A stretch of 64,000 nucleotides of DNA from Crambe crambe (Eukaryota > Porifera > Demospongiae > Poecilosclerida > Crambeidae). Positions 4,368 to 60,381 of this stretch are shown here, piece after piece. The stretch covers positions 5,828,001 to 5,892,000 of the forward strand of contig OZ004592.1 of assembly GCA_963924555.1 (NCBI GenBank), read 5' to 3'. A model generated the notes under the pieces. That model had not been told where the DNA came from. It saw only the letters and a list, made by a program, of their open reading frames with translations, and made no database searches. The stretch's first letter is position 1; each line of letters starts with the position of its first letter. Both the position numbers and the translations under genes were made by a program.

Positions 4368-5544
4368 TCAATTTGAGATTGATTTTGATTCCTCTCTCAG
4401 TGGTCTACGGGATCGAACACAATATGGTGTGGAGCGGGACCAGTGTCCAGTAGACAGACACAGACGAACAGAAGTTCCTCTCAGAACATAACCACTTCGG
4501 CATCTGTGCAAAGCTTTTGCTCCTGGTCCTGTTCCAGTGTATCGAACATGTCCATTTCTTATTGCTGGTGGTTTGCCACAGCTAATTTGACCTGCATGGT
4601 GGTTATTTCTGTATGTCATACAATTATAGATTAAGCTATGGTTTCCATGGCACCAGGAAAAAATGTCTTAGAGAGATGTCCTTATTTCAGGGGTGAACTG
4701 ATAGCAATCCTCTTATTGTAATTGGATGAGCAAACAGTATAGGCTAGGCTTAGGTATATTTCACATTCAGGGTTTCAATAGTATTTATTTTTACGTCTGC
4801 AAGTTGGAGGACTTCTACTCCATTTGCCATTGCTGAAGCATCTTCTCACTGATCTTCCATAGAGTCTAAATCCAGGGTCACAGCTGTAGAATGCTCTGGA
4901 TCCAAGAGAAGTCCCACTTACACGAACTGAGCCATATGCAGGGCTACGCAGTCGTGGACACCTGATGCCAATTAATTGGATCTCATGTATGCAAGTTGGT
5001 GCTTTCCCACTCCACTGGCCATCGCTCTGACAGGACCTTATTGGATTTCCCGAGAGTTTGAACTTGGAGTTACACTTGTAACGAGCTACAGATCCTGGTT
5101 GAAGACCATTAACACGTACAGAGCCATATCTTGGATCACTGAGGCGAGGGCACTCTATTGTAGCTGCAGGTATCATAATTTTGTAGAAGCTAACTTAACA
5201 GATTGAGTTATTAAGCTAACAGGACGATTTGAGATTATTATTTACTTACAATTGCATGTAGGTTCAGGTCCAAGGAATAGGAAATTAGCTCTCATTTTTT
5301 CAAAGTTGTACACACAAGTTGCCCAACTCTTTCCTACTAAGCTGAAACCATCATTGCACATGAAATTCACAATGTCTCCAATTTGGTACGAGCTCTTTTT
5401 GGGAGAGAACTGTCCATTCTTGAGTGGAGCTGGTGATCTGCAACTAGGAACTGCCAATGAGGAATCACACTTGTGGTGATGAAAAGACTCTGACTGATGA
5501 ATGATGCTCTGAACTAAGAAGAATAAAAGTAAGGTGATTGCCAT
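4368..5544 (-). CDS. Secreted four-module CCP protein (gene A)
   Basis: The first exon (5544 down to about 5242) has a hydrophobic signal peptide starting MAITLLLFFLVQSIIHQ, then a divergent CCP with cysteines at PSCRSPAP, FMCNDGF, ATCVYN and PTCN. One continuous exon (about 5170-4785) carries two CCPs, CPRLSDPRYGSVRV and [16 protein letters not shown], each with the C...YKC/YSC...C...WS..PTC pattern. The last exon (about 4605-4368) starts CGKPPAIRNGHV and ends CVRSRRPLREESKSISN-stop. CCP modules are extracellular binding modules of about 60 residues with two disulfides. The third and fourth modules, their intron and part of the 3' flank closely match the 3' end of gene B, so A probably arose by partial tandem duplication of B. 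No TATA box is evident upstream. Ligand unknown. Confidence 0.8.
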
Positions 5545-6060
5545 CTTCAGTCAGTAGTAACTTAGCAGCTATTATGACAATCAATCTTGTAACAACTAGC
5601 TAGTTCTAACAAAGATACCCCTTTTGGGCGGTTTTGTCTAGTGGCAAAGACAATATAGGAAAAGAATGTATTGTGAGCTGGGCTATCTTAATCCTGTTTA
5701 CAAATTAAAGCCACAAATTTCTCATAACACCTTGCTGCTATTTGGTGTTGTCGTTGACACACTATTAATAAATATTAATGTGTACAATTGATTGAGAAAG
5801 AGTAAAATGTGAACTAGCTAACTAATCAGAGAGTATGTCAGCTCTTTCCATGAGGGATGACACACAGCAGTCTCCATTATCATAGAGATACATGTTATAC
5901 GTGATTTTAAAAATGATCACGTAGCTATAACTGATGCAAGCTAGTTCACCACCAATCACACATGATGCATCCAACACCCCACTTTCTTCCTCGTCGCACA
6001 GTACTTAGCTAATTGAACTCACATGTTGCCAATAACTACAGAAAACTATAATCTGATGCT

Positions 6061-6612
6061 GTTCTCTTGTGGTGCAACTCACACAATCAGTGCCAGTTGC
6101 CAACCTTATAGCTAGCTACACACATCTGCATGATGGTCTTCACACAAATTTTGCAGTGCAACTGGCACAATCAGTACCAGTTGCCAACCTAACTAACCAC
6201 ACTAAACTATAACTGATGCTGTTCTATGCAACTCTGTGGTGCAACTCACACAATCAGTGACAGTTGCTAACAATCTATAATCAATGCTGTTCTATGCTCA
6301 CACACTCATTACAGAGTTCTTCACTTACACGTTCATCGCAGAAGTCTTCACTCACACACTTGTCATAAAGTTTTTTACTAATGGCACACTCACACACTAG
6401 CCTCGTCCCCAGGCTCTCGCGTTGCGCAGTTCTTTACTCACACACGTGGCGCAGTTTTTTATTCACACACACTTATCGCGAAGTTCTTTCTCACACACAC
6501 ACTTGCCACAAAGTTCTTTACTCACACACACTTCTTGCAGTTCTTATACACTTGTGGTGTTCATCACACAGTTCTTCACTCACACACTCACTGCATAGTT
6601 CTTCCTTGCACA
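6061..6612. repeat. Degenerate tandem repeats
   Basis: In 6061-6275 a block built on CAACTCACACAATCAGTGCC and CAGTTGCCAACC recurs at least three times, with CTGATGCTGTTCT between copies. From about 6290 to 6612 a unit of roughly 30 bp (CACACTCAT...AGTTCTTCACT variants) recurs about ten times. Copies are diverged, so the array is not young. Confidence 0.7.
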
Positions 6613-6963
6613 CTCCACTTACATAATCATCATGAAGAAGCATACTCTCAGTCCATTGTGCAGATCCCACTTGTGCTCGCTCTAGTCTGGCATCGTAGTG
6701 ACCCTGTATATACCAACCCAAGGGTTGCCACAATGCTAGACTAGTTCCACTCAAACACACACTCATCATCCACCATTCAATTCCACTACATATGTATTGT
6801 AGCTCATTAGTAGGGCACAACTCAATCAGTTCCACCCTATAACTGATGCTCTCTAATATTAGCTACCAAATAGCTATTGGAACTAGCTAGTGGCAGTTCC
6901 CAACATAGCTAATCCACTCTATGACTGATGCTCAGCTAGCTACAGCTATATTTGCACTGACAA

Positions 6964-7178
6964 TAAGGTAAAGCGGGGCTATTTCGAACGGCAGGTAATT
7001 CCGTATTGTTCAAATATTTCTGAAGCTACTCAGGCTTCTGAGCTCAATGTTGGAGGATATAATCTACCATAATAGTAGAATATACCTTTCAAAATAGAGC
7101 TCATAAGCTCGAGGAGTTTTGAAAATATTCGACCCTACGGAATAGCCCCACCGTTCGAAATAGCCCCGCTTTACCTTA
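6964..7178. mobile_element. MITE with perfect 28-bp inverted ends
   Basis: Positions 6964-6991 begin TAAGGTAAAGCGGGGCTATT, and 7151-7178 are the exact reverse complement over 28 bp. The outer TA on both sides could be a TA target duplication, as in Tc1/mariner elements. The interior repeats the theme GAATAGCCCCACCGTTCG next to the right end. No coding capacity. Perfect ends suggest fairly recent insertion. Confidence 0.8.
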
Positions 7179-7988: not shown

Positions 7989-10900
7989 TCAGTAGTGGGA
8001 TCGAACACAATATGGTGTGGAGTGGGACCAGTGTCCAGTAGACAGACACCGACGAACAAAAGTTCCCCTCAGAACATAACCACTTCGGCAACTGTGGAAA
8101 GCTCTTGCTCCTGGTCCTGTTCCACTGTATTGAACATGTCCATATTTCATTGCTGGTGGTTTTCCACAGCTAGTTAGACCTGCATGGTGGTTATTTCCGT
8201 CAAATGATTATATGTCATAAGCTAAGATTTCCATGACACCAGGACTTATTTTAGAGAGCCGTCCCAATTTCAGGGACTGATATACAATCCTCTTATTGTA
8301 ATTGGATGACGAAACAGTCTATATAGGTTTAGTATTGTATTTTATATTAGGGACTCCAGAATTCAGGGGTTCAATAGTACTTATTTTTACGTCTGCAAGT
8401 TGGAGCACTTCCACTCCATTTTCGATTGCTGAGGCATCTTCTCACTGAGCTACCATAGAGTCCAAATCCAGGGTTACAGCTGTAGAATGCTCTGGATCCA
8501 AGAGAAGTCCCACTTACATGAACTGAGCCATATGCAGGGCTACGCAGTCGTGGACACCCGATGCCTATTAAAATTAAACCATACTTAGCTAATCTGTATG
8601 TGGGATCTTATGTATACATGCATACGTATGCAAGATGGTGCTTTTCCACTCCATTGCCCATTGCTCTGGCATGATCTTCTTGAACTCCCTGAGAGCACGA
8701 ACCCAAAGTCACAACTGTAACGTGCTGATCCCCCTGGTCGGAGACTGCTTATGTGCACAGAGCCATATCTCGGAGCATTTAGACGAGGACAGAGAGAGAC
8801 TATAAAAGATACAAAGATTTTAAATTCCTAGGAAAAAATTTCATTATCTGCTATTACCTCTGCAAGTTGGAGCTTTTCCACTCCATTGTCCATTGCTAAG
8901 ACATCTCCTTGTCGACCTTCCCACTAGTTGGAATCCCTTATTGCACTGGTAAACAGCTAATGTTCCTGGCCTTCTAGTGGTCACTGTAACTGAGCCATAC
9001 TCAGGGTCACTTAGTTTAGGACAGAACACAGCTGAAAAATAAAATCACTGCATGTCAGGAAATTCATGGGAAAAATTTTTTTTTGGAAACACATGCTCAA
9101 ATTGCCCCAAGCAAATTCAAATTAAATCTTGTCTATTACTTACGCATGCATATTGGAGCCTCTCCATCCCACTTCCCACTGCCCTGGCATCCTCTCATGG
9201 ATTTTCCAACCAGTTTGAATCCGGAGTTGCATCTATATGTGGCTGTGTCCCCTGGATTCTTTCCAGTAGTACTCACAGATCCATATTTGGGGTTACTGAG
9301 ATCAGGACAGGTGATTTCTGGAAATTAGCATTGAATCATAGTTACACTTCTCCCCAGGTCCCTCTCCAGGCTTACCCTCGCAAGTCGGAGCCTCTCCACT
9401 CCACTCTCCATTACCCTGACACTTTCTCATGTCTTGCCCAGCCAGCTCAAAATTTTGATTACACCTGTACATGGCTTCAGATCCAGGAGAATTTCCAGTA
9501 GTATTAACTGATCCATCATCAGGATCTTCAAGCTCAGGACAAGTGATGCCTGGGGATAATTAGATTATAGCTAGCTAACTTCTTTAGAGCTTCCGGCTTC
9601 CGGCTTACCCATGCAAGTGGGGGCGTCACCAGTCCATTCTCCATTCTCCTGACACTCCCGCGATTCTTCTCCAACGCGTTTAAAGTAACGGTTGCAGGAG
9701 TACAGAGCTACAGATCCCGGGACCTGAGAGCTAACAAATACTTGTCCATTCTCCGGATTTTCCAGAGGAGGGCAAGTGACAGCTAAAAGATAATAACAAT
9801 TTAAGATCTCTTATTACGCATGCGCACACAAATCACTTTACCCATGCAGGTAGGAGCCTGGCCACTCCATTCTCCATTGTCCTGGCAAGTTCTGGTTCTC
9901 TCCCCAACCACTTTGGATGGGAAGTTGCAGCTATATGTAGCTGTCGACCCAGGGGTATTCCCATCAACACTGACTGAACCACCCTCAGGGTCCTCCAAGT
10001 CGGGACAGGTGATAACTACAAGAGTACTAGGTACTACATTTATATATCATATACACAGTTTCTTACGCATGCAAGTTGGTGCTTCTCCACTCCACTCTCC
10101 ATTGGTCTCACATGTCCTCTTGGTTGCTCCTACTACCTTGAAACCAGAGTCACATGAGTATGTTGCCATGGATCCAGGAGTATTTTCTTCACGGTCAATC
10201 TTCACTGATCCATCGTCAGGGTCAGCCAGGTCAGGACAGGTAATCTCTTCATGGATTAATTAATTAATAATTAGCTCTGTGTATTATTGTGGCTCCAAGC
10301 TATCATAGCCTGTTGATTACAAGTGCTTACTCATGCAAACTGGTGGCACTCCATCCCATTCGCCAGAACTTTGACAGCTCCTAGTTCCCTTTCCCATCAG
10401 TTCAAATCCAGAGTTACAAGTGTATGTAGCAGTGGATCCAGGAGTGTTTCCATCCGTATCAACATCTCCATTATCCGGATCATCCAGGTCAGGACAAACA
10501 ATTTCTAGAGTCATTCATTAAATGATCGCAACCATTAGCTAAGACCAACTTACGCATGCAAGTTGGAGCCTTTTCATTCCACTGTCCGTTACTCTGACAC
10601 ACCCTTGTTTCCCTTCCCACTAGTTTGAAGTTATCATTACATCTGTATGTGGCTGTGGATCCAGGCACAGTACCATCAGTATCGACCGATCCGTTTTCAG
10701 GATCAGCCAGATCGGGACAATTGATACCTTTAGGAATTTGTAAGAGTAGCTCATTATAAATCTGTATGGATATACTCTGTAGTGTATGGATGGTTGGCTT
10801 CTCTGCTGCATGCTTTGGATAAGAGATCTACCTATCAGCTACTTATGCATAGAAATTGAGTGTATTGAATCATGGTTGGCTTCTCTGTTGCATGCCTGAT

Positions 10901-12189
10901 CTTAGCATAGGTAAGAGATCCACGTACCTATCAGCTAGCTACTTACGCATACAAATTGGAGCTTGACCGCTCCAATCTCCATTATTTTGACAGTTCCTGG
11001 TATCTTCTCCCACCACTTTATAACCACTGTTGCAGGTGTACAAAGCAGTGGAACCTGGAACCCTGGTACCAATAAGTACTTTGCCATTGGCTGGGTTTTC
11101 CAGAACAGGACAAAGGATACCTGAAAAATTTAAAGTCATTCTAACTAGCTAGCTAGCTAATTATCTTTTGTATAAAAAAGTCACTCTGTGACGTACGCAT
11201 GCAAGTCGGAGCTTCTCCATCCCACTCTCCATTGGTCTGGCAGTTTCTCACTTCTTCTCCCACAAGTTTGAATCCGAAATTGCACCGATGAGTAGCTTTT
11301 GAACCTGGGGTGTTGCCACTGAGGCTCACTGTACCATACTCAGGGTTCTCAAGATTAGGACAAACGATACCTGAATATTGTAAGTTAGTTTGTGATTGCT
11401 TGCAGATGATTGTTTGCAGATTACATAATATTGTTATACTTACGGTCACAAGTAGGGGCTTTCCCACTCCACTCTCCATTGCTTTGGCATCTTCTCATGG
11501 ATGCACCTTCTAGTTCAAATCCAGAATCGCACTGGTAAGTTGCTTTTGCTCCTGGTCTGTTGCCAGTGGTTTTCACCGAACCATATTCTGGATCAGCCAG
11601 TCTAGGGCAAACAATGGCTGCATGTATTATACATAAAGAAGAATCGATAAGATGTTTCTTGATTTGATTCTTGGTCTAGCCAATAAGATTTCTTACGCAT
11701 GCAAGTAGGAGCATTTCCACTCCATTTTCCATTCCTCTGACATCTCCTAGTGGAACTTCCAACCAGCTTGAAGGTTGGGTTGCACCTATATGTGGCAGTG
11801 GCCCCTGGCCTGTTGCCACTAGTACTAACAGAACCATACAAAGGTGAACTCAGACGGGGGCAGGTGATTGCTGTGTTTTTTAGATTATAGAAATCTTAAA
11901 TCATGTAGCTAGTTAAGATTATACCTGGTCTGCAGATAGGGGTTGGATGTGACCAGAAAGTCCTCCTCCTGTGAGAATCAAACCTACAGACTGCTGATTG
12001 AGATCCTACCAGAGAAAATCCCTTATTACATCGGAAGTGCACACTACTTCCAACTGAATATGACTTCTGCCTGGGACTGAAATCTCCATATCGAGGGGAA
12101 GAAGGAGGTCTGCAGTAGTACGTGGCGGAACTGAACTGAAAGCACTGCACCAACACAGTGGCGAGTACTAAGGCTGTTGCTAGCGACAT
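7989..12189 (-). CDS. Secreted sixteen-module CCP protein, acidic core (gene B)
   Basis: Exon 1 (12189 to about 11935) encodes a signal peptide, [16 protein letters not shown], and a first CCP of the family type ([14 protein letters not shown]...[11 protein letters not shown]). Fourteen one-exon CCPs follow, near 11.8, 11.6, 11.3, 11.1, 10.7, 10.5, 10.2, 10.0, 9.7, 9.5, 9.3, 9.0, 8.8 and 8.5 kb. The last exon (about 8180-7989) starts [12 protein letters not shown] and ends CVRSHY-stop. The central modules, such as [18 protein letters not shown], are rich in Asp/Glu, in contrast to the basic arrays of genes C to G. They have diverged from one another, so this array is older than those of C to E. 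Exons are phase 1 and symmetrical, which favours gain and loss of whole modules. Expected to be secreted; the ligand is unknown. Confidence 0.85.
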
Positions 12190-13532: not shown

Positions 13533-16408
13533 TCAGTGGTACACACATTTTGGTGTAGAGCCTGACCAGTGACCAGTAGGGAGACAGTGACGCACTCTAT
13601 TCCCCTTCAAGGTGTATCCTTTACTGCAGGAGTACTTAGCCACACCTCCTTGTTTTGTAGAAGTGTAGCTGACATATCCATTCTTCACTGGTGGTGGTTT
13701 ACCACAGTCCACTACTCCTATACATATTATACTAGCTAAGTGTGATCACAGATAATCATTAATCTCTTACGTTGGCAAGTTGGTGCCTTTCCACTCCAGT
13801 ATCCATTGCTCAGACACTTCCTAGTGGAAGCTCCCACCAGCCTGAAGCCAGGTTTGCAGCTGTACTTCGCTACTGATCCAGGTCTGAAATAGCCAGTGAC
13901 CTTAACTGAGCCATACTTTGGTGCACTGAGACGTGGGCAAGTGATGGCTGCATAGAAATCACTAAGGATCAATTTCATTTCTTATTCTGCAATTTTGTTC
14001 TTACGTCGGCAAGTTGGTGCCTTTCCACTCCAGTATCCATTGCTCAGACACTTCCTAGTGGAAGCTCCCACCAGCCTGAAGCCAGGTTTGCAGCTGTACT
14101 TCGCTACTGATCCAGGTCTGAAATAGCCAGTGACCTTAACTGAGCCATACTTTGGTGCACTGAGACGTGGGCAAGTGATGGCTGCATAGAAATCACTAAG
14201 GATCAATTTCATTTCTTATTCTGCAATTTTGTTCTTACGTCGGCAAGTTGGTGCCTTTCCACTCCAGTATCCATTGCTCAGACACTTCCTAGTGGAAGCT
14301 CCCACCAGCCTGAAGCCAGGTTTGCAGCTGTACTTCGCTACTGATCCAGGTCTGAAATAGCCAGTGACCTTAACTGAGCCATACTTTGGTGCACTGAGAC
14401 GTGGGCAAGTGATGGCTGCATAGAAATCACTAAGGATCAATTTCATTTCTTATTCTGCAATTTTGTTCTTACGTCGGCAAGTTGGTGCCTTTCCACTCCA
14501 GTATCCATTGCTCAGACACTTCCTAGTGGAAGCTCCCACCAGCCTGAAGCCAGGTTTGCAGCTGTACTTCGCTACTGATCCAGGTCTGAAATAGCCAGTG
14601 ACCTTAACTGAGCCATACTTTGGTGCACTGAGACGTGGGCAAGTGATGGCTGCATAGAAATCACTAAGGATCAATTTCATTTCTTATTCTGCAATTTTGT
14701 TCTTACGTCGGCAAGTTGGTGCCTTTCCACTCCAGTATCCATTGCTCAGACACTTCCTAGTGGAAGTTCCCACCAGCTTGAAGCCAGGTTTACAGCTGTA
14801 CTTCGCTACTGATCCAGGTCTGAAATAGCCAGTGACCTTAACTGAGCCATACTTTGGTGCACTGAGACGTGGGCAAGTGATGGCTGCATTTAAAAGACAG
14901 TAAATTATTCTGCAACTCTGATAAATATCCTTACGTCGGCAAGTTGGTGCCTTTCCACTCCAGTATCCATTGCTCAGACACTTCCTAGTGGAAGCTCCCA
15001 CCAGCCTGAAGCCAGGTTTGCAGCTGTACTTCGCTACTGATCCAGGTCTGAAATAGCCAGTGACCTTAACTGAGCCATACTTTGGTGCACTGAGACGAGG
15101 GCAAGTGATGGCTGCATTTAAAAGACAGTAAATTATTCTGCAACTCTGACAAATATCCTTACGTCGGCAAGTTGGTGCCTTTCCACTCCAGTATCCATTG
15201 CTCAGACACTTCCTAGTGGAAGCTCCCACCAGCCTGAAGCCAGGTTTGCAGCTGTACTTCGCTACTGATCCAGGTCTGAAGTAACCAGTGACCTTAACTG
15301 AGCCATACTTTGGTGCACTGAGACGAGGGCAAGTGATGGCTGCATAGAAATCACTAAGGATCAATTTCATTTCTTATTCTGCAATTTGTTCTTACGTTGG
15401 CAAGTTGGTGCCTTTCCACTCCAGTATCCATTGCTCAGACACTTCCTAGTGGAAGTTCCCACCAGCTTGAAGCCAGGTTTACAGCTGTACTTCGCTACTG
15501 ATCCAGGTCTGAAATAGCCAGTGACCTTAACTGAGCCATACTTTGGTGCACTGAGACGTGGGCAAGTGATGGCTGCATTTAAAAGACAGTAAATTATTCT
15601 GCAACTCTGATAAATATCCTTACGTCGGCAAGTTGGTGCCTTTCCACTCCAGTATCCATTGCTCAGACACTTCCTAGTGGAAGCTCCCACCAGCCTGAAG
15701 CCAGGTTTGCAGCTGTACTTCGCTACTGATCCAGGTCTGAAGTAACCAGTGACCTTAACTGAGCCATACTTTGGTGCACTGAGACGAGGGCAAGTGATGG
15801 CTGCATAGAAATCACTAAGGATCAATTTCATTTCTTATTCTGCAATTTTTTCTTACGTCGGCAAGTTGGTGCCTTTCCACTCCAGTATCCATTGCTCAGA
15901 CACTTCCTAGTGGAAGTTCCCACCAGCTTGAAGCCAGGTTTACAGCTGTACTTTGCTACTGATCCAGGTCTGAAATAGCCAGTGACCTTAACTGACCCAT
16001 ACTTTGGTGCACTGAGACGTGGGCAAGTGATGACTAGAAGACCCAATATAAATTGTAATCTTGGAATTTGATATTAGCTAGCTAGTTATGTCACTTACGC
16101 TTGCAAGTTGGTGAAGGATTTGACCAATAGGGACTCTTATGAGGACGAATGATACAGACTGAGGAACTCTTTCCCACCAATTTATAGCCCTTGTTGCATC
16201 TGAACGTCACTCTTTGTCCAATCCTGTAGAACTTCTGCACCGGATGGAAAGAGCCATAACTTGGCTGGGTTGGAGGCTTGCATCCATAGTGATATCCTGC
16301 TATGGCAGGTGTTGCTGCAGCAGAGCTGAACTGAACACACTGAACCAACACTGTGGCCAGGGCTAAGCCTAGCGTGATGTAGCCCGTTATAGCTCTTGTG
16401 ATAGCCAT
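13533..16408 (-). CDS. Secreted twelve-module basic CCP protein (gene C)
   Basis: Exon 1 (16408-16097 or so) has a signal peptide containing [17 protein letters not shown] and the family first CCP (GCKPPTQPSYGSFHP...FRCNKGYKLVG...SPTCKRK). Ten internal CCP exons of about 177 bp follow, nearly identical in protein: ITCPRLSAPKYGSVKV, then KYSCKPGFRLVG, then [11 protein letters not shown]. The last exon (about 13720-13533) starts CGKPPPVKNGYV and ends PKCVYH-stop. Each internal module has no Asp or Glu and about 12 Lys/Arg. The introns are tiny, 57 or 51 bp. The near-identity of exons and introns indicates very recent amplification, so the true copy number may differ from this assembly and between individuals. 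Expected to be a secreted polycation; function unknown. Confidence 0.87.
13770..16036 (-). repeat. Tandem exon-intron array of gene C (about 234 bp units)
   Basis: Ten units, each one CCP exon of about 177 bp plus an intron. Two intron types alternate irregularly: a 57-bp type with an in-frame stop (13955-14003, 14188-14237, 14421-14470, 14656-14704, 15347-15391 and about 15804-15855) and a 51-bp type open in frame (about 14887-14932, 15114-15160 and 15577-15621). Units at 13982-14215, 14216-14449 and 14450-14683 appear identical over 234 bp. Unequal crossover or conversion is the simplest cause. Confidence 0.92.
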
Positions 16409-17395: not shown

Positions 17396-20300
17396 TCAGT
17401 GGTAGACACAAGTTGGTGTAGAGCCAGTCCAGTAGCCATGGTAGGTGCAGGAACGCACTCTACTTCCCTTCAAAGTGTATCCTTTCCTGCAGGAGTAGTG
17501 GGCCACAGAACCACTTGTAGTAGAAGTGTAGCTAACATATCCGTATTGCACTGATGGGAGTTTGCCGCAGTCCACGATTTCTGTTTATTGAGAGAGTATT
17601 TTAGAATTAGATGAAGAGTGTCAGTTGATGTGCATGTACTGTAGAGACATTACTTTTGCAAATTGGTGTTTTTCCAGTCCAGTATCCAGTGCTTAGACAC
17701 TTCCTGACGATGCTCCCCACTAAGTGGTATCCATGGTTGCAGCTATATTTAGTAATGGATCCAGGTACATACAACCCACTGGCCTTGAATGGACCGTGTA
17801 CACTGGTATTAATCGTGCCATACTTTGGTGCACTGAGACGAGGGCAATGGACGATTGCTGAAGGGATCAATAATGATTGTGATCATATTTCTACATTTGA
17901 AAATCAGACTAGCAAGCTTTTCTTACGTTTGCAAGTTGGTGCCTTTCCACTCCAGGAACCAGTGAGAAGACATTTTCTAAAAATACTTCCAACCAATTTA
18001 TATCCAAATTTGCAGCTGTGCTTAGCAACAGATCCAGTTCCATATCTTATGGAGCCATATGTAGGTGAGTGTTTATAATTGATCAAGCCATACTTTGGTG
18101 GAGTTAAACGACTACAAGTGAGAGCTGAAAAGCCAAGTTAGAGAAGTTCCAGTAAGTGCTATATTTTTGTCTAGTAATAATTACAGTTCTTACGTTTGCA
18201 AATTGGAGCCTTTCCACCCCAGCGTCCACTGATGAGACATTTTCTAGTGGAAATTCCCACCAGTTTGTATCCATATTTGCAGCTGTACTTGGACACAGAT
18301 CCCAGTCCGTAATATCCTTTGATTGAGCCATACTTGGAAGGTGTGTAGTTGACTAATCCGTACTTTGGTACAGTGAGACGAGGGCAGTAGATGGCTAGAG
18401 GATGAAGAATAAAGCTAGTCATATTTTATCATAAAATTGGGCTAAGCAAATAAAGTTACGTTTGCAAATTGGAGCCTTTCCACCCCAACGTCCACTGATG
18501 AGACATCTTCTAGTGGAAATTCCCACCAGTTTGTATCCATATTTGCAGCTGTACTTGGACACAGATCCCAGTCCGTAATATCCTTTGATTGAGCCATATG
18601 TAGAAATTGTGTAGTTGACTGAACTGTACTTCGGTACAGTGAGACGAGGGCAGTAGATTGCTGAAGAATGAAATGTTATTAAAATAGTGACTATTGGAAA
18701 GAAATTTGAGTTTACGTTTGCAAATTGGAGCCTTTCCACCCCAGCGTCCAGTTATCAGACATTTTCTAGTGGAAATTCCCACCAGTTTGTACCCATATTT
18801 GCAGTTGTACTTGGACACAGATCCCAGTCCATAATATCCTTTGATTGAGCCGTACTTTGAAGGTGTATAGTTGACCCAGCTGTATTTTGGTACAGCGAGA
18901 CGAGGGCAGTAGATGGCTAGAGGACCAAGAATCAGTTATCTTATCATAAAATTAGAAAATAAAGTTACGTTTGCAAATTGGAGTCTTTCCACCCCAGCGT
19001 CCACTGATGAGACATCTTCTAGTGGAAATTCCCACCAGTTTGTACCCATATTTGCAGCTGTACTTGGACACTGATCCCAGTCCGTAATATCCTTTGATTG
19101 AGCCATACTTAGAAATTGTGTAGTTGACTGAGCCATACTTTGGTACAGTGAGACGAGGGCAGTATATCGCTAAAGAATGGAATATTATTGAGATAGTGAG
19201 TATTGGAAAGAAATTCGAGTTTACGTTTGCAAATTGGAGCCTTTCCACCCCAACGTCCACTGATAAGACATCTTCTAGTGGAAATTCCCACCAGTTTGTA
19301 CCCATATTTGCAGTTGTACTTGGACACAGATCCCAATCCATAATATCCTTTGATTGAGCCATACTTGGAAGGTGTATAGTTGACCCAGCTGTATTTCGGT
19401 ACAGCGAGACGAGGGCAGTAGATGGCTAGAGGACCAAGAATCAGTTATCTTATCATAAAATTAGAAAATAAAGTTACGTTTGCAAATTGGAGTCTTTCCA
19501 CCCCAACGTCCACTAATGAGACATCTTCTAGTGGAAATTCCCACCAGTTTGTATCCATATTTGCAGCTGTACTTGGACACAGATCCCAGTCCGTAATATC
19601 CTTTGATTGAACCATATGTAGAAATTGTGTAGTTGACTGAGCCGTAATTTGGTACAGTGAGACGAGGGCAGTAGATGGCTAGAGGACCAAGAATAATGCT
19701 AGTCATATCAATAATTCAAGAGAATAAAAAATTAAGTACGTTTGCAAATTGGAGCCTTTCCACCCCAACGCCCACTGATGAGACATCTTCTAGTGGAAAT
19801 TCCCACCAGTTTGTATCCATATTTGCAGCTGTACTTGGACACAGATCCCAGTCCGTAATATCCTTTGATCGAGCCATACTTGGAAGGTGTGTAGTTGACT
19901 AATCCGTACTTTGGTACAGTGAGATGAGGGCAATAGATGGCTAGAGGATGAAGAATAAAGCTAGTCATATTTTATCATAAAATTGGGCTAAGCAAATAAA
20001 GTTACGTTTGCAAATTGGAGCCTTTCCACCCCAACGTCCACTGATGAGACATCTTCTAGTGGAAATTCCCACCAGTTTGTATCCATATTTGCAGCTGTAC
20101 TTGGACACAGATCCCAGTCCATAATATCCTTTGATTGAACCATATGTAGAAATTGTGTAGTTGACTGAGCCATACTTTGGTACAGTGAGACGAGGGCAGT
20201 AGATGGCTAGAGGACCAAGAATAAAGCTAGTCATATTTTATCATCTAATTTAAAGAAATAAAAGTTACGTTTGCAAATTGGAACCTTTCCACCCCAGCGT

Positions 20301-23218
20301 CCACTGATAAGACATCTTCTAGTGGAAATTCCCACCAGTTTGTATCCATATTTGCAGCTGTACTTGGACACAGATCCCAGTCCATAATATCCTTTGATCG
20401 AGCCATACTTGGAAGGTGTGTAGTTGACTAATCCGTACTTTGGTACAGTGAGACGAGGGCAGTAGATGGCTAGAGGATGAAGAATAAAGCTAGTCATATT
20501 TTATCATAAAATTGGGCTAAGCAAATAAAGTTACGTTTGCAAATTGGAGCCTTTCCACCCCAACGTCCACTGATGAGACATCTTCTAGTGGAAATTCCCA
20601 CCAATTTGTATCCATATTTGCAGCTGTACTTGGACACAGATCCCAGTCCGTAATATCCTTTGATTGAACCATATGTAGAAATTGTGTAGTTGACTGAGCC
20701 ATACTTTGGTACAGTGAGATGAGGGCAGTAGATGGCTAGAGGACCAAGAATAAAGCTAGTCATATTTTATCATCTAATTTAAAGAAATAAAAGTTACGTT
20801 TGCAAATTGGAACTTTTCCACCCCAGCGTCCACTAATGAGACATTTCCTAGTGGAAATTCCCACCAGTTTGTACCCATATTTGCAGCTGTACTTGGACAC
20901 AGATCCCAGTCCGTAATATCCTTTGATTGAACCATACTTAGAAATTGTGTAGTTGACTGAGCCATACTTTGGTACAGTGAGATGAGGGCAGTAGATGGCT
21001 AGAGGACCAAGAATAAAGCCAGTCATATTTTATCATCTAATTTAAAGAAATAAAAGTTACGTTTGCAAATTGGAGCCTTTCCACCCCAACGTCCACTGAT
21101 GAGACATCTTCTGGTGGAAATTCCCACCAATTTGTATCCATATTTGCAGCTGTACTTGGACACAGATCCCAGTCCGTAATATCCTTTGATTGAACCATAT
21201 GTAGAAATTGTGTAGTTGACTGAGCCATACTTTGGTACAGTGAGATGAGGGCAGTAGATGGCTAGAGGACCAAGAATAAAGCTAGTCATATTTTATCATC
21301 TAATTTAAAGAAATAAAAGTTACGTTTGCAAATTGGAACCTTTCCACCCCAGCGTCCACTGATGAGACATTTCCTAGTGGAAATTCCCACCAGTTTGTAT
21401 CCATATTTGCAGCTGTACTTGGACACAGATCCCAGTCCGTAATATCCTTTGATTGAACCATACTTAGAAATTGTGTAGTTGACTGAGCCATACTTTGGTA
21501 CAGTGAGATGAGGGCAATAGATGGCTAGAGGACCAAGAATAAAGCCAGTCATATTTTATCATCTAATTTAAAGAAATAAAAGTTACGTTTGCAAATTGGA
21601 ACCTTTCCACCCCAGCGTCCACTGATGAGACATTTCCTAGTGGAAATTCCCACCAGTTTGTATCCATATTTGCAGCTGTACTTGGACACAGATCCCAGTC
21701 CGTAATATCCTTTGATTGAACCATATGTAGAAATTGTGTAGTTGACTGAGCCATACTTTGGTACAGTGAGATGAGGGCAGTAGATGGCTAGAGGACCAAG
21801 AATAAAGCTAGTCATATTTTATCATCTAATTTAAAGAAATAAAAGTTACGTTTGCAAATTGGAACTTTTCCACCCCAGCGTCCACTAATGAGACATTTCC
21901 TAGTGGAAATTCCCACCAGTTTGTACCCATATTTGCAGCTGTACTTGGACACAGATCCCAGTCCGTAATATCCTTTGATTGAACCATACTTAGAAATTGT
22001 GTAGTTGACTGAGCCATACTTTGGTACAGTGAGATGAGGGCAATAGATGGCTAGAGGACCAAGAATAAAGCCAGTCATATTTTATCATCTAATTTAAAGA
22101 AATAAAAGTTACGTTTGCAAATTGGAACCTTTCCACCCCAGCGTCCACTGATGAGACATTTCCTAGTGGAAATTCCCACCAGTTTGTATCCATATTTGCA
22201 GCTGTACTTGGACACAGATCCCAATCCGTAATATCCTTTGATTGAACCATGCTTAGAAATTGTGTAGTTGACTGAGCCATACTTTGGTACAGTGAGATGA
22301 GGGCAGTAGATGGCTAGAGGACCGACAATGTATTCATGAATAGTTACAATAATATGTCAAACAAAATCAATATGTTACGTTTGCAAATTGGAGCCTTTCC
22401 ACCCCAGCGTCCACTGATAAGACATGTCCTACTGGAAATTCCCACCAATTTGTATCCGTATTTGCAGCTGTACTCGGACACAGACCCTGCTTTGTGATAT
22501 CCCTTGAAAGAGCCATATCTGGGCAAAGATGAATAATTTACTGATCCATACTTCGGCACAGTAAGACGTGGGCAATAGATGGCTGAAGAAACAGAGAACA
22601 ATATGCAATAAAAAATTTCATCACAAATGTATATAAATATTATTTTTACGTCGGCAAAATGGTGTCCTTCCAGTCCAATAGGGGTATCCATGGCCTACAC
22701 ACTTCCTGACAGGACTGCCCACCAGTTTGTGTCCAGGGAAACACTTATATGTGGCTATGGATCCTGTTCCAGAGTGTCCAGTGACGTTAACTGTGCCGTA
22801 CTTGGGTGTGCTTAGACGGGGACACTTGATGATGCCTGGAGAAGTTGGAACAAGATCACTCTGGTAATATAAATGTCCATCTTATACTCTCACTTACTTA
22901 CTTACTATAGCTACTATAACACTTACGTTTGCATTTCGGTAAAGGATTTGACCAATAGGGACTCCTATGAGGTTGAGCGATGCAGACTGCATAACTCTTT
23001 CCCACCAAGATATAACCTTTATTGCACTTGAATGTTATTCGTTGCCCGTTTTTGTAGTGGTCCTGCATTGGAGAGTAGGAACCACGGTATGTGCTGTAAT
23101 GGTACAGAGGTTTGCATCCATAATGTGCTGTTTTGATGGCAGGTGCTGTTGCAGAGCTGAACTGAAGGCAATGAGCCAACACTGTTGCCAGCGCTAAGCC
23201 TAGCGTGATGTAGCCCAT
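17396..23218 (-). CDS. Secreted giant CCP protein, about 22 modules (gene D)
   Basis: Exon 1 (23218 to about 22928) gives a signal peptide, MGYITLGLALATVLAHC, and the family first CCP (YGCKPLYHYSTYRGSY...FKCNKGYILVG). Twenty internal CCP exons follow, about every 263 bp from 22.83 kb down to 17.65 kb. Most have the form IYCPRLTVPKYGSVNYTIS, an insert rich in Tyr/Gly/Ser, then VSKYSCKYGYKLVG and RWGGKAPICKR. The last exon (about 17575-17396) starts CGKLPSVQYGYV and ends PTCVYH-stop. Typical internal modules have no acidic residue and about 13 Lys/Arg. Predicted length is roughly 1,400-1,500 residues, long for a secreted protein made of only one module type. Modules nearest each end are the most divergent, as expected if unequal exchange acts mainly in the middle. 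Function unknown; an extracellular matrix or surface-binding role is inference. Confidence 0.86.
18187..22320 (-). repeat. Tandem exon-intron array of gene D (about 263 bp units)
   Basis: CCP exon ends recur near 18192, 18460, 18713, 18967, 19224, 19478, 19738, 20005, 20266, 20534, 20797, 21060, 21323, 21586, 21849 and 22112; the last six are spaced exactly 263 bp. Neighbouring introns are also nearly identical. A higher-order pattern is visible: two linker types, one with TISKYGS or TISTYGS and one with TPSKYGS, alternate in parts of the array. Confidence 0.9.
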
Positions 23219-24713: not shown

Positions 24714-26695
24714 TCAATGAGCCACACATTTTGGCGTAGAGCCTGACCAGTAACCAGTAGGAAGACAGTAGCGCACATTATTCCCCTTCAGGGTGTATCC
24801 TTTCCTGCAGGAGTAGTAGGCCCTAGAACCCACAGTAGTGGATCTGTACTTCACTGATCCATTCTTCACTGATGGTGGTTTGCCACAATCCACTACTCCT
24901 GTTAGATAGTGCATATAACTATCATCAGTAATGGTACATACATACGTTTACAAGTTGGTGCCTGTCCGCTCCATTTTCCATTACTCATGCACCTCCTAGT
25001 GGAACTTCCCTGCAACTTGAATCCAGGGTTGCACTTGTATTTAGCGATGGAGCCTGGCTTGTTTCCACTGACACTAACTGACCCATATCTTGGTGGACGA
25101 AGTTTAGGGCAAGTACGAGCAACTATTAAAAATAATAATAATTATCTAGCTGTGTTGACTAGGACAGAAATGATCGATATAGTACCACGTTTGCAAGTTG
25201 GTGCCTGTCCACTCCATTTTCCATTGCTCATGCATCTCCTAGTGGAACTTCCCTGCAACTTGAATCCAGGGTTGCACTTGTATTTAGCAATGGAGCCTGG
25301 CTTGTTTCCACTGACACTAACTGACCCATATCTTGGTGGACGAAGTTTAGGGCAAGTACGAGCAACTATTAAAAATAATAATAATTATCTAGCTGTGTTG
25401 ACTAGGACAGAAATGATCGATATAGTACCACGTTTGCAAGTTGGTGCCTGTCCGCTCCATTTTCCATTACTCATGCACCTCCTAGTGGAACTTCCCTGCA
25501 ACTTGAATCCAGGGTTGCACTTGTATTTAGCGATGGAGCCTGGCTTGTTTCCACTGACACTAACTGACCCATATCTTGGTGGACGAAGTTTAGGGCAAGT
25601 ACGAGCAACTATTAAAAATAATAATAATTATCTAGCTGTGTTGACTAGGACAGAAATGATCGATATAGTACCACGTTTGCAAGTTGGTGCCTGTCCACTC
25701 CATTTTCCATTGCTCATGCATCTCCTAGTGGAACTTCCCTGCAACTTGAATCCAGGGTTGCACTTGTATTTAGCGATGGAGCCTGGCTTGTTTCCACTGA
25801 CGCTAACTGACCCATATCTTGGTGGACGAAGTTTAGGGCAAGTACGAGCAACTATTAAGCAAAATAATTATCCATATGGCTATGTTGACTAGCACAGAAG
25901 TACATGAAATCAAAGTTACCACGTTTGCAAGTTGGTGCCTGTCCACTCCATTTTCCATTACTCATGCACCTCCTAGTGGAACTTCCCTGCAACTTGAATC
26001 CAGGGTTGCACTTGTATTTAGCGATGGAGCCTGGCTTGTTTCCACTGACACTAACTGACCCATATCTTGGTGGACGAAGTTTAGGGCAAGTACGAGCAAC
26101 TATTAAGAAAAATAATAGTTATCTAGCTGTGTTGACTAGGACAGAAATGATCGATATAGTACCACGTTTGCAAGTTGGTGCCTGTCCACTCCATTTTCCA
26201 TTGCTCATGCATCTCCTAGTGGAACTTCCCTGCAACTTGAATCCAGGGTTGCACTTGTATTTAGCGATGGAGCCTGGCTTGTTTCCACTGACACTAACTG
26301 AGCCATATCTTGGTGGACTCAGGCGAGGGCAAGTCTTGGGGGTAGCTATACATCCACAGCAACACTCATATTGGGGGGGGGGGGGGGGGAGGATAACCAT
26401 CTCACTTACGTTTGCAGGTTGGTGAAGGATTAGACCAATAAGGTCTCCTGTAAGGACTACTTCTACAAACGGCGTAACTCTTTCCTACCAAGGTGTAGCC
26501 CCTGTTGCATCTGAAAGATACCCTTTGCCCGACTCGGTAGTACCTCTGCACAGGGTAGTATGAACCATACTTTGGGCGTTTAGGGGGCGGACATGCATGT
26601 GATGCTTTGGCTGGTGCTGGTGTTTCTGCAGAACTGAATTGAGCACACTGCACCAACACGATGGCCAGCACCAAGCCTAGCGTGATGTAGCCCAT
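24714..26695 (-). CDS. Secreted eight-module basic CCP protein (gene E)
   Basis: Exon 1 (26695 to about 26408) carries a signal peptide, MGYITLGLVLAIVLVQC, and the family first CCP (HACPPPKRPKYGSYYP...FRCNRGYTLVG...SPTCKRK). Six internal modules follow, ending near 26164, 25921, 25673, 25430, 25187 and 24944: RTCPKLRPPRYGSVSVSG, then YKCNPGFKLQG and [11 protein letters not shown]. The last exon (about 24900-24714) starts CGKPPSVKNGSV and ends PKCVAH-stop. Internal modules have no acidic residues and about 13 basic ones. The period is 243 bp, a multiple of three, so the plus strand also stays open by chance through four units. The acceptor before the first internal module lies about 40 bp past a long homopolymer C tract on the sense strand. 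Confidence 0.87.
24944..26340 (-). repeat. Tandem exon-intron array of gene E (243 bp units)
   Basis: Six units with exon ends at 24944, 25187, 25430, 25673, 25921 and 26164. Spacing is 243 bp except for one of 248 bp. Units 25187-25673 match almost base for base, including the introns with the AATAATAATAATTATCTAGC theme. Only the first unit, next to exon 1, keeps a different 5' edge. Confidence 0.9.
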
Positions 26696-27523: not shown

Positions 27524-29469
27524 TCAGTATTTTTTGTGGTAGTAGTAAACACATTTTGGTGTGGAACCGGACCAGTAGCCATTGTGGCGACAGTAGCGCA
27601 CTCGACTCCCCTTCAAGGTGTATCCTTTCCTACAGGAGTAGCGAGCCACAGAACCTTTAGTGGTAGAAGTGTAGCTGACATATCCATACTGCACTGATGA
27701 TAGTTTCCCGCAGTCCACAACTCCTGTGGTTGATTGGTGTGTAAGCATTAATCCATATCATAATGATTATCAATTACGTTTGCAAGTTGGTGCCTTTCCA
27801 TTCCAGTAAGTGCCCAGACACTTCCTGGTGGAACTTCCATAAAGTTTGTATCCATAGTTGCAGCTGTACCTAACAACAGACCCCTGTCCATAATACCCAC
27901 TGGATCCTGAGCCATATGAGCCATATGAAGTGTAGTGGACTGAGCCATACTGGAGTTTGCTAACACGAGAACAGTGGACTCCTGAAGGAGAAAAGTATAT
28001 AACCATGAACCATGATTATCATAGCAAAGTTTACGTTTGCAAGTCGGTGCCTTTCCACTCCAGTAAGTGCCCAGACACTTCCTGGTGGAACTTCCATAAA
28101 GTTTGTATCCATATTTGCAGCTGTACTTAACGACAGATCCCTGTCCGTAATACCCACTGGATCCTGAGCCATATGAACCATATGAAGTGTAGTGGACTGA
28201 GCCATACTGGAGTTTGCTAACACGAGAACAGTGGACTCCTAAAGAGGAAAGTATATAACCATGAACCATGACTATCTTCTTTGTATCACAGCAAAGTTTA
28301 CGTTTGCAAGTTGGTGCCTTTCCATTCCAGTAAGTGCCCAGACACTTCCTGGTGGAACTTCCATAAAGTTTGTATCCATATTTGCAGCTGTACTTAACGA
28401 CAGATCCCTGTCCGTAATACCCACTGGATCCTGAGCCATATGAACCATATGAAGTGTAGTGGACTGAGCCATACTGGAGTTTGCTAACACGAGAACAGTG
28501 GACTCCTAAAGAAGAAAGTATATAACCATGAACCATGACTATCTTCTTTGTATCACAGCAAAGTTTACGTTTGCAAGTTGGTGCCTTTCCATTCCAGTAA
28601 GTGCCCAGACACTTCCTGGTGGAACTTCCATAAAGTTTGTATCCATAGTTGCAGCTGTACTTAACGACAGATCCCTGTCCATAATACCCACTGGATCCTG
28701 AGCCATATGAGCCATATGAAGTGTAGTGGACTGAGCCATACTGGAGTTTGCTAACACGAGAACAGTGGACTCCTAAAGAGGAAAGTATATAACCATGAAC
28801 CATGACTATCTTCTTTGTATCATAGCAAAGTTTACGTTTGCAAGTTGGTGCCTTTCCACTCCAGTAAGTGCCCAGACACTTCCTGGTGGAACTTCCATAA
28901 AGTTTGTATCCATAATTGCAGCTGTACCTAACAACAGACCCCCTTCCGTAATACCCACTGGGTACTGAGCCATATTTCGATGATGAACTGTAATAAGTTG
29001 AACCATACTGGAGTGCACTAACATGAGAACAATAGGTGATGCCTAAAGGAGAAAAGTATGTATTATGGCAAGTAACAAGTAATTTGAGCCTGAGGGGGAA
29101 TTATCACTCACGTTTGCAGATTGGCAAGCGGTGCAGCCAATAAGGTCCCCTATGGGGTTTGCTTGTGCAAACAGAATAATCCTGTCCCACCAAGTAGTAG
29201 CCCTTATTACACTTGAAGGTTATGCGCTGTCCAATTTGGTAGTACTTCTGCTTTGGATAGTAGGAGCCATAGTAGCCTGAACGATGAGGAGGTTGGCAGC
29301 CATAGTTTTTCAATCCAGAGTGTGGTGATACATATCGTTGCGATCCAGAGTGTTTCGATCCAGGTGGCAATCTATGTTGTTGCGATCCATATTGCAATGT
29401 TGCAGAGCCGAATTGAAGGCACTGAACCAAAGCAACGGCCAGCACTAAGCCTAGCGTGATATGACCCAT
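27524..29469 (-). CDS. Secreted seven-module Tyr-rich CCP protein (gene F)
   Basis: Exon 1 (29469 to about 29110) has a signal peptide, MGHITLGLVLAVALVQC, a spacer rich in His, Ser, Gly and Gln, and the family first CCP (YGCQPPHRSGYYGSYYP...FKCNKGYYLVG). Five internal modules follow about every 267 bp: VHCSRVSKLQYGSVHYTS, a repetitive Tyr/Gly/Ser linker, then YSCKYGYKLYGSS and YWNGKAPTCKRK. The last exon (about 27730-27524) starts CGKLSSVQYGYV and ends PKCVYYYHKKY-stop. Typical internal modules lack Asp and Glu. Several 63-bp introns are multiples of three without a stop, so transcripts retaining them would still be translated. Predicted to be a secreted cationic protein; Tyr-rich linkers could allow cross-linking, which is inference. 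Confidence 0.86.
27776..29040 (-). repeat. Tandem exon-intron array of gene F (267 bp units)
   Basis: Units have exon ends near 27776, 28031, 28299, 28566 and 28833. The middle three are nearly identical in exon and intron, while the unit closest to exon 1 is the most diverged. Confidence 0.88.
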
Positions 29470-30257
29470 CAGCTTAAACCTGTAGTCGTGATTATGAGTT
29501 GCAACTGAGTGTGAAGATCTGGCTGTCAGTAGAGAGTGTGTCTTAATTTATAGTCTCGCATGAGGGGCTAGGCTAATCAATTTACTACAATTGGGAAATA
29601 TCACATGCTTCTAGAAAGGTTTCCTCCTCACATCTGTGGTGTGGATTAGTTGACAGATAACAGTAGCCTTTTCTTTGTCATGATCTCCTTTCAATAGTGG
29701 TAAAAGCTATAGACAGAATGACAACTATAAGGACTAATTGCAAGTATTAAGTGTTGTATTCATAACAGAATTACGTAAAAGCCATAATAATAATAATATG
29801 ATTATTTTTCTTAAAATCAAATTAGCTATTACTGAATGGGAATGCTATAAGCATTTGTGATTGCTAGTTATAGTTATACATAATAAATATAGCTACTGGA
29901 ATATGAATTGCATACTGTTTTAATCAAATCAGTCAGTATATACAGCTATCAGTGTTAGTCAGGGCTGGCATCACTTCTCATTCTGTTGACCTTTCTTGAT
30001 AGGCTAGGGTGCATGATATGTCTAGGCCACTCCTCATTGCCATGCACATGCCATGCACATGCATACACTAGAGCACACAAATTTAATGCTGGCCCCACTA
30101 TTTATATTGGGCATCCAGCTGCCATGCTTCTGAGTATTAAAGATATTGACGCCATAGATTATTATAGCAAAAAAAAAATTTTTTTTTAACTAATGGTACA
30201 AGAAGTCCTTAATAAAGTTCCATTTTTAGTTGATAGTATTTCCAAATAGTTCATTTA
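29470..30257. other. Spacer between genes F and G
   Basis: Holds the gene F promoter near 29545 and AT-rich DNA. Nothing else is supported. Confidence 0.5.
29545..29554 (-). promoter_or_regulatory. TATA-like box of gene F
   Basis: The minus strand reads ACTATAAATT about 76-85 bp before the gene F start. CTCTACTGACAG follows at about 29523-29534, similar to the word following the gene C box. Confidence 0.5.
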
Positions 30258-31236
30258 TCAGTGATACACACATTTTGGTGTGGTGCCAGACCAGCGACGA
30301 TTGTAGAGGCAGCGGCGCACCTTATTCCCCTTCAAGGTGTATCCTTTCCTGCAGGAGTAGTAGGCCCTAGAACCCACACTGGTGGATCTGTACCTCACAG
30401 ATCCATTCTTCACTGATGGTGGTTTACCACAACCTATGTATTTGGTCACACAGTTAACTTGATTTTTGCTTTGCTGTTTATTGTTACAAGATTTTCAGAT
30501 AGTCATGAGGGAGGGAGATCAATATTCATTAGTTTTGCTTCAAGGAAAATTACCATTAAATGCCTCATCTAATTGCTGACAAAATTGGATAAGAGGAGGT
30601 GTAAAATATTAGTTAGCTTGGCCTTATGAAAAAGTTAATTATCATGTTAGCGATCTCCATACCCTTCTTGCATTTAGGTGCCTTTCCACTCCAGCGTAGA
30701 TTATACAGACAATATCTAGTAGGCTTTCCCTCCGGTTTGTATCCATGTCTGCACCTGTACGTAGCTACAGAGCCTGGTTTGTAATTCCCACGAACCTTGA
30801 CCCAACCATATCTTGGTGGCTTCAGACGGGGACATCTCTTGGGGACAGGAGGTTTACCTATACGATATTCATACCAATAAAAATATCATCAGTAGCACTG
30901 TCTCATGCATTTACGTTTGCAGATTGGTGAACGATTTGACCAATAAGGTTTCTGATAAGGACGGCCAATACAGCGAGCATATTTTTTCCCCACGAGTTTG
31001 TAGCCCTTCTTGCATCTGAAGAATACTCCTTGCCCAATATAGTAGTAATTCTTCACTGGAATGAAAGAACCGTATCTTGGGCGACGGGGAGGCTTACACA
31101 CTTTTCTAGATTTGAAAGCTGGTTTGGTAGATGGAGTTGGAGTAGGTGGACCTTTGGTAGGTCTTGCTGCAGAGCTGAACTGAACCAACACGATAACCAG
31201 CACTACGCCTAGTGTGATGTTACTGATGTAACCCAT
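30258..31236 (-). CDS. Secreted three-module CCP protein (gene G)
   Basis: The start at 31236 is chosen because MGYISNITLGVVLVIVLVQ is the family signal peptide; upstream in-frame residues lack that character. The first CCP (KVCKPPRRPRYGSFIP...FRCKKGYKLVG...SPICKRK) ends near 30912. One internal CCP at about 30860-30668 reads KRCPRLKPPRYGWVKVRG, then YRCRHGYKPEG and RWSGKAPKCKK. The last CCP (about 30437-30258) starts CGKPPSVKNGSV and ends PKCVYH-stop. All three modules are strongly basic. This is the minimal family member: the two conserved end modules with a single internal one, which may approximate the ancestral layout. Confidence 0.85.

Positions 31237-60350: not shown

Positions 60351-60381
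<31 letters not shown>

Follow-up and report, generated by a model that had tools for sequence, protein, structure and literature searches.

The window, a stretch of 64,000 nucleotides from the sponge Crambe crambe, contains seven neighbouring CCP-array genes (G1 to G7) on the minus strand between positions 4368 and 31236. Each of them encodes a likely signal peptide and a distinct first CCP, followed by internal CCPs and a distinct last CCP, the number of internal modules being 2, 14, 10, 20, 6, 5 and 1 from G1 to G7. The genes and one example of each end-exon type are as follows:

G1, 4368..5544, minus strand: leader and first CCP, two internal CCPs in one exon, last CCP; 295 aa, D+E 4.4%
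G2, 7989..12189, minus strand: first CCP, 14 internal CCPs, last CCP; 965 aa, ends basic, middle acidic
G3, 13533..16408, minus strand: first CCP, 10 near-identical internal CCPs, last CCP; 754 aa, one acidic residue
G4, 17396..23218, minus strand: first CCP, 20 internal CCPs, last CCP; 1494 aa, three acidic residues
G5, 24714..26695, minus strand: first CCP, six internal CCPs, last CCP; 516 aa, two acidic residues
G6, 27524..29469, minus strand: first CCP, five internal CCPs, last CCP; 526 aa, two acidic residues
G7, 30258..31236, minus strand: first CCP, one internal CCP, last CCP; 230 aa, one acidic residue
First-exon type (G3 example), 16099..16408, minus strand: leader and long first CCP, ending in YWSNPSPTC
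Last-exon type (G3 example), 13533..13717, minus strand: CGKPP start, CVYH stop, Asp immediately before the first Cys

The gene models are predictions obtained by splice-site inspection and assembly. With a script that covered phase-1 sites only, every intron is readable as a phase-1 intron bounded by GT and AG; the signal peptides were called solely from hydropathy. No second hydrophobic segment was detected in G1 to G7 (the highest KD19 value beyond residue 35 is 0.79). The sequence-only reading had described seven same-strand genes with fixed ends and a variable middle of 1 to 20 one-exon CCPs; the assembled models, none of which has an inner stop, bear out this arrangement and the range of module numbers, except that in G1 both internal CCPs share a single exon. 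A motif scan of the window returned 71 CCP-like stretches on the minus strand between 4419 and 31098 and a further three at 60586-61537, as well as two plus-strand matches, neither of which is CCP-like in appearance. The first module of G1, which was overlooked by the motif, was added, giving a total of 72 CCPs in G1 to G7. A similar scan found no CCPs in the 10 kb on each side of the window, and the window itself gave neither tRNA nor Rfam matches. Downstream of G1 (4121..4177, minus strand) lies a short relic that, judged by eye, resembles the end of a last-CCP exon. The promoters appeared by eye to form two look-alike groups, G3/G4/G6 and G5/G7; a shared promoter is unsupported, since pairwise identities of 0.40-0.60 fail to separate the two groups.

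The arrays repeat a four-cysteine CCP roughly 54-64 residues long, and 71 of the 72 modules fit the four-cysteine motif. All ten exons or modules tested, among them the seven first exons, scored above the cut-off for Pfam Sushi (PF00084). The sole non-Sushi family above the cut-off was a hormone-receptor-domain match overlapping a Sushi in the two-CCP exon of G1, so that the earlier statement that the modules are accompanied by no other domain holds. The predicted proteins end 3 to 16 residues past the last CCP cysteine. The PKCVYH-stop ending that had been proposed for the last CCP is exact in G3 and G7 and is not found elsewhere, the endings being PTCVYH in G4, PKCVAH in G5, PKCVYYYHKKY in G6 and PYCVRS... 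in G1 and G2. The end modules had likewise been claimed to be fixed, which is confirmed both by the tree of modules, where the seven first modules form their own clade and the seven last modules another, and by dN/dS values of 0.14-0.60 in 36 of 37 computable end-exon pairs (5 of the 42 pairs were not computable). The exception, 2.06 for the last exons of G1 and G2, rests on a dS of 0.07; the end exons are mostly under purifying selection. The same tree, which was built from short modules with the 97 modules of contigs C14 and C11 as the only outside set, recovered no clade uniting all modules of G1 to G7 and leaves their common descent unsupported. The internal modules of G3, G5 and G6 are homogenised, not diversified, which leaves diversifying selection in the arrays unsupported.

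What sets G3 to G7 apart is the near-total loss of Asp and Glu, together with a gain of Lys and Tyr. Modules without any D/E make up 48 of 52 in these five genes (33 of 37 distinct modules), as opposed to 4 of 20 in G1 and G2 and 4 of 162 CCPs from five other contigs, the latter being a sample because the genome search scored 150 of 413 Sushi candidates, and comprising those CCPs that passed motif and score in 20 stretches selected for containing Sushi matches or for flanking the window. A Fisher test on distinct modules gives 8e-29, a value inflated by the non-independence of paralogous modules. Every module of G3 to G7 carries a net charge between about +6 and +15. When modules are joined, the longest D/E-free run reaches 1217 aa in G4; it is at most 132 in four further sets of joined CCPs and at most 102 in 132 control ORFs (raw open frames, not known genes, taken from the window flanks and from three stretches of 10 kb). 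At codon positions 1-2, GA occurs in 9 of 3520 cases in G3 to G7, while the remaining two codon registers show it at 9.6% and 4.0% and the introns at 5.1%. Since GA is frequent there, the acid loss acts on the protein and not on the DNA, and a cause in DNA composition is rejected. Relative to 97 modules from contigs C14 and C11 only (C14 counts of D/E and composition take in a basic gene starting at 6875103), Lys is raised about sixfold (10.0 vs 1.7%) and Tyr nearly fourfold (11.9 vs 3.2%), whereas pooled Arg is not raised (6.1 vs 6.7%). G7 is rich in Arg as well as Lys (13.0 vs 12.4%), and Tyr/Gly/Ser-rich inserts are carried by the internal CCPs of G6 and by most of those of G4. G1 and G2 are less changed relatives. 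The acid-free genes form one lineage, and therefore the shift may have been a single event. The sequence-only reading mentions neither the loss of acidic residues nor the gain of Lys and Tyr.

The plan itself is not unique to the seven genes, since it recurs in a second CCP-array cluster of the same genome on contig C14 (chromosome 11, about 6.857-6.899 Mb). As in G1 to G7, a leader and a distinct first CCP, encoded in a single exon in three plus-strand cases, precede a long array of mostly one-exon CCPs, some of them near-identical. The best C14 first module scores E 6e-7; a joint clade with the first modules of G1 to G7 was not recovered in the short-module tree. The C14 modules contain on average 3.9 D/E, and the gene from 6875103 looks CCP-only, is Arg-rich (D+E 3.1%) and is a possible intermediate. 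Unlike G1 to G7, three C14 arrays apparently run into a C-terminal tyrosinase-like domain. Judged by eye against haemocyanin (one of the three domains aligned) and a ligand-keeping frame on contig C21, these three domains have apparently lost most of their histidine copper ligands and would therefore provide no cross-linking enzyme, so that the idea of tyrosinase-like neighbours as active cross-linkers is weakened. None of the 11 tyrosinase matches of the genome lies on contig C15. The genome encodes tyrosinases and lysyl oxidases; both are common in animals and therefore do not discriminate for a curing role. It also encodes exons of putative silicatein type, as judged from a motif. With the first exon of G3 as query, no relatives were found in viral contigs, the one set of sequences beyond this genome that was searched for relatives. 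Acid-free CCP arrays or the G1 to G7 family did not appear among the titles and abstract openings listed in the literature searches, the scope of which excluded subscription journals and preprints. CCP-only chains as such are already a known kind of protein; the special feature of G3 to G7 is the acid-free, Lys/Tyr-rich version.

Gene structure, CCP identity, acid loss at the protein level, Lys/Tyr gain, homogenised arrays and conserved ends were computed directly. From these we infer secretion, location, ligand and cross-linking, as well as a role for G2. G3 to G7 may well encode secreted, Lys/Tyr-rich structural polycations of a matrix or cement, built on a CCP scaffold, a reading to which we give an even chance; between the functions suggested earlier, "adhesion or matrix" would suit the acid loss better than "recognition." In each protein, 3 to 22 disulfide-locked, nearly acid-free CCPs would follow one another between conserved end modules, and the protein would act outside the cell. 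The Lys-rich surface could bind polyanions in sea water, such as spicule silica, sulfated matrix glycans or the substrate, with reach and valency set by array length, and the many Tyr and Lys residues would permit covalent curing by tyrosinase- or lysyl-oxidase-type chemistry. G2, whose ends are basic and whose middle is acidic, could associate with the cationic arrays. The high Arg content of G7 and the single lineage of the acid-free genes weigh against this reading. A more specific version, tentative at about half that confidence, is that a complement-type array was turned into a length-tunable, acid-purged Lys/Tyr polycation, the folded equivalent of a silaffin or mussel foot protein, which organises the silica of the spicules or serves as a glue for the skeleton, with G2 as coacervation partner.

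It is very improbable that the lack of D/E is a functionally meaningless by-product of DNA composition or of the copying of a few modules. Many of the 52 modules are indeed recent copies, but the codon-register and intron frequencies of GA speak against it, as does the breadth of the change, which affects 33 of 37 distinct modules, first and last ones included, in five genes separated by dS values of 0.33-1.55 at their end exons. Complement-type regulators or recognition receptors, possibly serving self/non-self recognition through array length, would share the CCP-only plan with factor H, C4BP and CR1 and have arrays of a kind expected to vary in length. CR1, CR2 and factor H are also the top sequence matches among solved structures. 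These matches are, however, explained by the module type and by multi-module targets summing scores, not by shared function, and we know of no parallel to nearly acid-free modules among complement regulators or receptors, so that this explanation appears improbable.

Two further alternatives accept the charge as functional. Many vertebrate CCPs bind heparin, and the aggregation factors of sponges carry sulfate and are acidic; the multivalent cationic modules could thus be soluble linkers that bridge acidic proteoglycans of the aggregation-factor type in adhesion, with no mineral or curing role. Sites that bind sulfated glycans, however, tend to rely on Arg, whereas here pooled Arg is not raised and Tyr is nearly four times background, and we regard such linkers as rather unlikely. 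Somewhat less unlikely, though still a minority view, are secreted cationic defence proteins that, in an animal living by filter feeding, bind the negative surfaces of bacteria and agglutinate, kill or tag them, with avidity set by array length. The strong positive charge of every G3 to G7 module would suit this, a high content of Lys and Tyr would also be compatible with a soluble polycation of antimicrobial or agglutinating action, and Sushi-domain genes are, according to a study on the sponge Halichondria panicea, among those changed after LPS (PMC8242945). By contrast, the homogenised internal modules and conserved ends lack the usual diversification of an arms race, the pooled gain is in Lys and Tyr and not in Arg, and the acid loss is, by argument, stricter than agglutination would need.

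If the matrix or cement reading is correct, G3 to G7 would be a candidate organic component of the demosponge skeleton or of adhesion. Spicule formation in Crambe crambe has itself been studied, as cited in PMC10772126, and array length can be compared between the chromosome-level genome of the species and the deposited alternate haplotype (GCA_963924525.1), as these are described in PMC12166358. One gene lineage would then have purged nearly all acidic side chains from an extracellular, folded module whose cysteines and core were retained, and G3 to G7 would represent natural supercharged proteins.

Factor H, C4BP, CR1 and beta-2-glycoprotein I are, like G1 to G7, Sushi chains without other domains, and CR1 also carries near-identical repeats. 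The acidic residue content of these proteins is ordinary, and their ligands are complement or phospholipid; G3 to G7 differ from the factor H/CR1 type in the near absence of acidic residues, the richness in Lys and Tyr and the conservation of the first and last modules. The high Lys and Tyr content and the near absence of Asp/Glu are shared with mussel foot proteins of the mfp-1 type, which are secreted and repetitive; their repeats are short, unfolded peptides with DOPA, whereas the repeat of G3 to G7 is a four-Cys, disulfide-locked CCP. Silaffins of diatoms are short peptides without a folded domain. In a review, the functional residues of silaffin-1A are given as S, K, G and Y, cationic charge is concluded to promote silica formation, and silaffin activity is said to require lysine modification and phosphate (PMC11733937). 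The likeness to G3 to G7 is one of composition only, both being cationic repeat proteins rich in Lys, Ser, Gly and Tyr, while silaffins are short, bear polyamines on their lysines as well as phosphate and lack the CCP fold, and G3 to G7 are Sushi-matching proteins of 230 to 1494 aa. The Sushi-thrombospondins of calcareous and homoscleromorph sponges, corals and anemones also have extracellular tandem Sushi modules, as predicted for G1 to G7, but combine them with an EGF-like domain and a TSP C-terminal region, neither of which was found in G1 to G7 (PMC6526912). Glassin and perisilin, secreted silica proteins of hexactinellids for which extracellular silica deposition was proposed, resemble the predicted G1 to G7 in being secreted, and perisilin also in forming a gene family; in the excerpt they are characterised by His-rich regions and, for perisilin, a CAP-like domain, with CCPs unmentioned, whereas G1 to G7 are built from CCPs (PMC10772126).

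When both strands of the window were scanned by motif, 71 stretches resembling CCP (Sushi, PF00084) modules turned up at 4419-31098 on the minus strand, and the same motif detected no CCPs in the 10 kb on either side of the window. Models built from splice signals (only phase-1 sites were searched), start codons and exon assembly yielded seven genes, with every intron readable as phase 1:

CCP-array genes and their internal modules
G1, 4368-5544, minus strand, 2 internal CCPs
G2, 7989-12189, minus strand, 14 internal CCPs
G3, 13533-16408, minus strand, 10 internal CCPs
G4, 17396-23218, minus strand, 20 internal CCPs
G5, 24714-26695, minus strand, 6 internal CCPs
G6, 27524-29469, minus strand, 5 internal CCPs
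G7, 30258-31236, minus strand, 1 internal CCP

The sequence-only reading had proposed that these genes share a leader with first CCP, a variable internal array and a last CCP, and this plan is borne out. None of the seven models has an inner stop, and all 10 exons or modules given to the Sushi profile scored above its cut-off. In every gene, the first CCP shares its exon with the start codon and a hydrophobic leader, the stop follows the last CCP cysteine by 3 to 16 residues in all models, and no second hydrophobic segment was found in the seven products. In alignment, the leaders of G2-G7 look related (near one 23-residue sequence), while that of G1 is different. Each of G3-G7 has a TATA-like box 70-115 bases ahead of its start codon, and judged by eye the upstream sequences resemble one another within G3/G4/G6 and within G5/G7, a grouping that pairwise identity does not bear out. 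A short relic 3' of G1 (4121-4177, minus strand), which by eye resembles the end of a last-CCP exon, is perhaps the trace of a lost family member.

The same reading had claimed distinct, fixed end modules, and this holds as well: in a tree built from 154 distinct modules of the G1-G7 cluster and two other contigs of the genome (C14, which is chromosome 11, and C11), the seven first and the seven last modules each fall into an exclusive clade (support 0.77 and 0.85, respectively), and of the 37 end-exon pairs for which dN/dS could be computed, 36 have values <=0.60. Only the last exon of G1/G2, a recent copy with dS 0.07, departs from this; the 3' end of G1 (4368-5163) appears to have been copied recently from its G2 counterpart (7989-8799). 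Modules of ~56 residues resolve little, and a single clade of all G1-G7 or all G3-G7 modules was not recovered in this tree, nor were the C14 first modules joined to those of G1-G7. Internal modules of G3, G5 and G6 cluster by gene, the G4 group also takes in G6, and those of G2 and G7 show no such grouping. Within-gene mean identity of internal exons is 98% in G3, 96% in G5, 92.5% in G6, 84% in G4 and 60% in G2. In G3 (13771-16033) and G4 (17654-22835) similarity is much higher between exons than between the adjacent introns, G3 having exons 95-100% identical, followed by introns that form two groups ~48% alike and one outlier; this contrast suggests exon-level gene conversion or exchange.

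In G3-G7, Asp and Glu together make up 0.1-0.4% of residues, with computed charges of +54 to +231. Modules without D/E number 48 of 52 in G3-G7 (33 of 37 distinct ones) versus 4 of 20 for G1-G2. Among 162 CCPs sampled on five other contigs, with averages of 4.0 D/E and 3.9 K/R, four are acid-free, all on C14. Fisher's test for acid-free modules (8e-29) overstates the certainty, the modules being related to each other; what can safely be said is that a single gene lineage differs sharply in D/E from all other CCP clusters sampled. The longest D/E-free run is 1217 residues in the joined G4 modules versus 102 in 132 control ORFs, and only 94 in the short G7; D+E was <=1% in two control ORFs (93 and 154 codons). 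The dinucleotide GA is scarce only at codon positions 1-2 (0.26%, 9/3520; 9.6% and 4.0% in the other registers, 5.1% in introns), which places the loss at the protein level. In the last CCP, G3-G6 each retain an Asp immediately ahead of the first cysteine. Along G2, net charge per module runs +8, +8, +1, -3, 0, -3, -8, -6, -5, -4, -7, +3, +6, +6, +7, +7.

Comparing the 37 distinct G3-G7 modules with 97 from C14 and C11, Lys is 10.0% versus 1.7%, Tyr 11.9% versus 3.2%, Arg 6.1% versus 6.7% (G7 is the exception, with 13.0%), Asn 2.5% versus 6.3% and Phe 0.9% versus 3.3%. Tyr is lower in G3 (7.2%) and G5 (6.2%) than in G4 (11.9%) and G6 (16.6%); the modules of G4 and G6 have inserts rich in Tyr, Gly and Ser in the Cys1-Cys2 interval, and basic columns in G3-G7 are distributed across the whole module.

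With the G3 first exon as query, the six other first exons were recovered and, weakly, modules of a second CCP-array cluster on C14 (E 6e-7 and 2e-4, the latter no better than unrelated internal modules score). Three plus-strand cases there likewise combine leader and CCP in one first exon; for the minus-strand array none could be located. Counted by exon, the genome has 11 tyrosinase matches, of which 3 lie directly downstream of C14 CCP arrays:

Tyrosinase-like domains after long CCP arrays (tyrosinase matches)
C14:6858096-6858647, minus strand
C14:6887789-6888268, plus strand
C14:6898523-6899014, plus strand

Phase-1 splice signals could join array and tyrosinase exon. The WHR signature reads WNR or FNR in two of the domains and is kept in one, and most copper-B histidines seem absent in all three, making these loci candidate CCP-array pseudo-tyrosinases, apparently spliced to the arrays. 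One C14 gene looks CCP-only and basic, but acidic residues persist in it: its 10 modules contain 3.1% D+E, 3.2% K and 11.0% R, and an 11th CCP probably precedes the stop. Judged from these C14 relatives, the plan probably predates the acid loss.

The motif CGASYAF marks silicateins. A degenerate pattern for it matched 8 places in the genome versus 1 for a reversed control, and four of five loci read have a silicatein-like frame containing it, which fits a siliceous demosponge. On the chromosome of the window, six silicatein-type exon pattern matches (C15:872855-884857; four read) are spaced ~5.05 kb, with one copy on either strand per repeat. This contig matches chromosome 12 (7.24 Mb) of odCraCram1.1, as listed in its genome report (PMC12166358). 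Neighbors within the window are:

Other features of the window
43031-44413, minus strand, 460-aa open frame, sulfatase/N-sulphoglucosamine sulphohydrolase match
46078-47742, minus strand, 554-aa open frame, Sec1 family match
59550-61537, minus strand, Ig I-set open frame with three CCP-like stretches upstream (60586-61537), perhaps a separate Ig/CCP gene

We favor an extracellular structural polycation for the G3-G7 products, based on composition, homogenized arrays, conserved ends and the siliceous host and, weakly, on the tyrosinases and lysyl oxidases encoded in the genome; Tyr and Lys would possibly serve in its curing. Defense, glycan bridging and a complement-type role are less probable alternatives. 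One review lists S, K, G and Y for silaffin-1A and states that cationic macromolecules promote silica formation, and that silaffin without phosphate or phosphate buffer is inactive (PMC11733937). Other papers describe the final steps of large demosponge spicules as suspected to be extracellular (PMC10772126) and encrusting C. crambe as a substantial silicon sink (PMC12166358).

Sponge Sushi domains are reported together with SRCR domains (PMC8242945) and in sushi-thrombospondins (PMC6526912). Among the literature matches listed, which cover sources other than subscription journals and preprints, none describes the G1-G7 family. To our knowledge, the composition of G3-G7 has no counterpart among other CCP proteins. 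The modules are ordinary CCPs in a known sort of plan, and it is the composition of G3-G7 that appears to be new.
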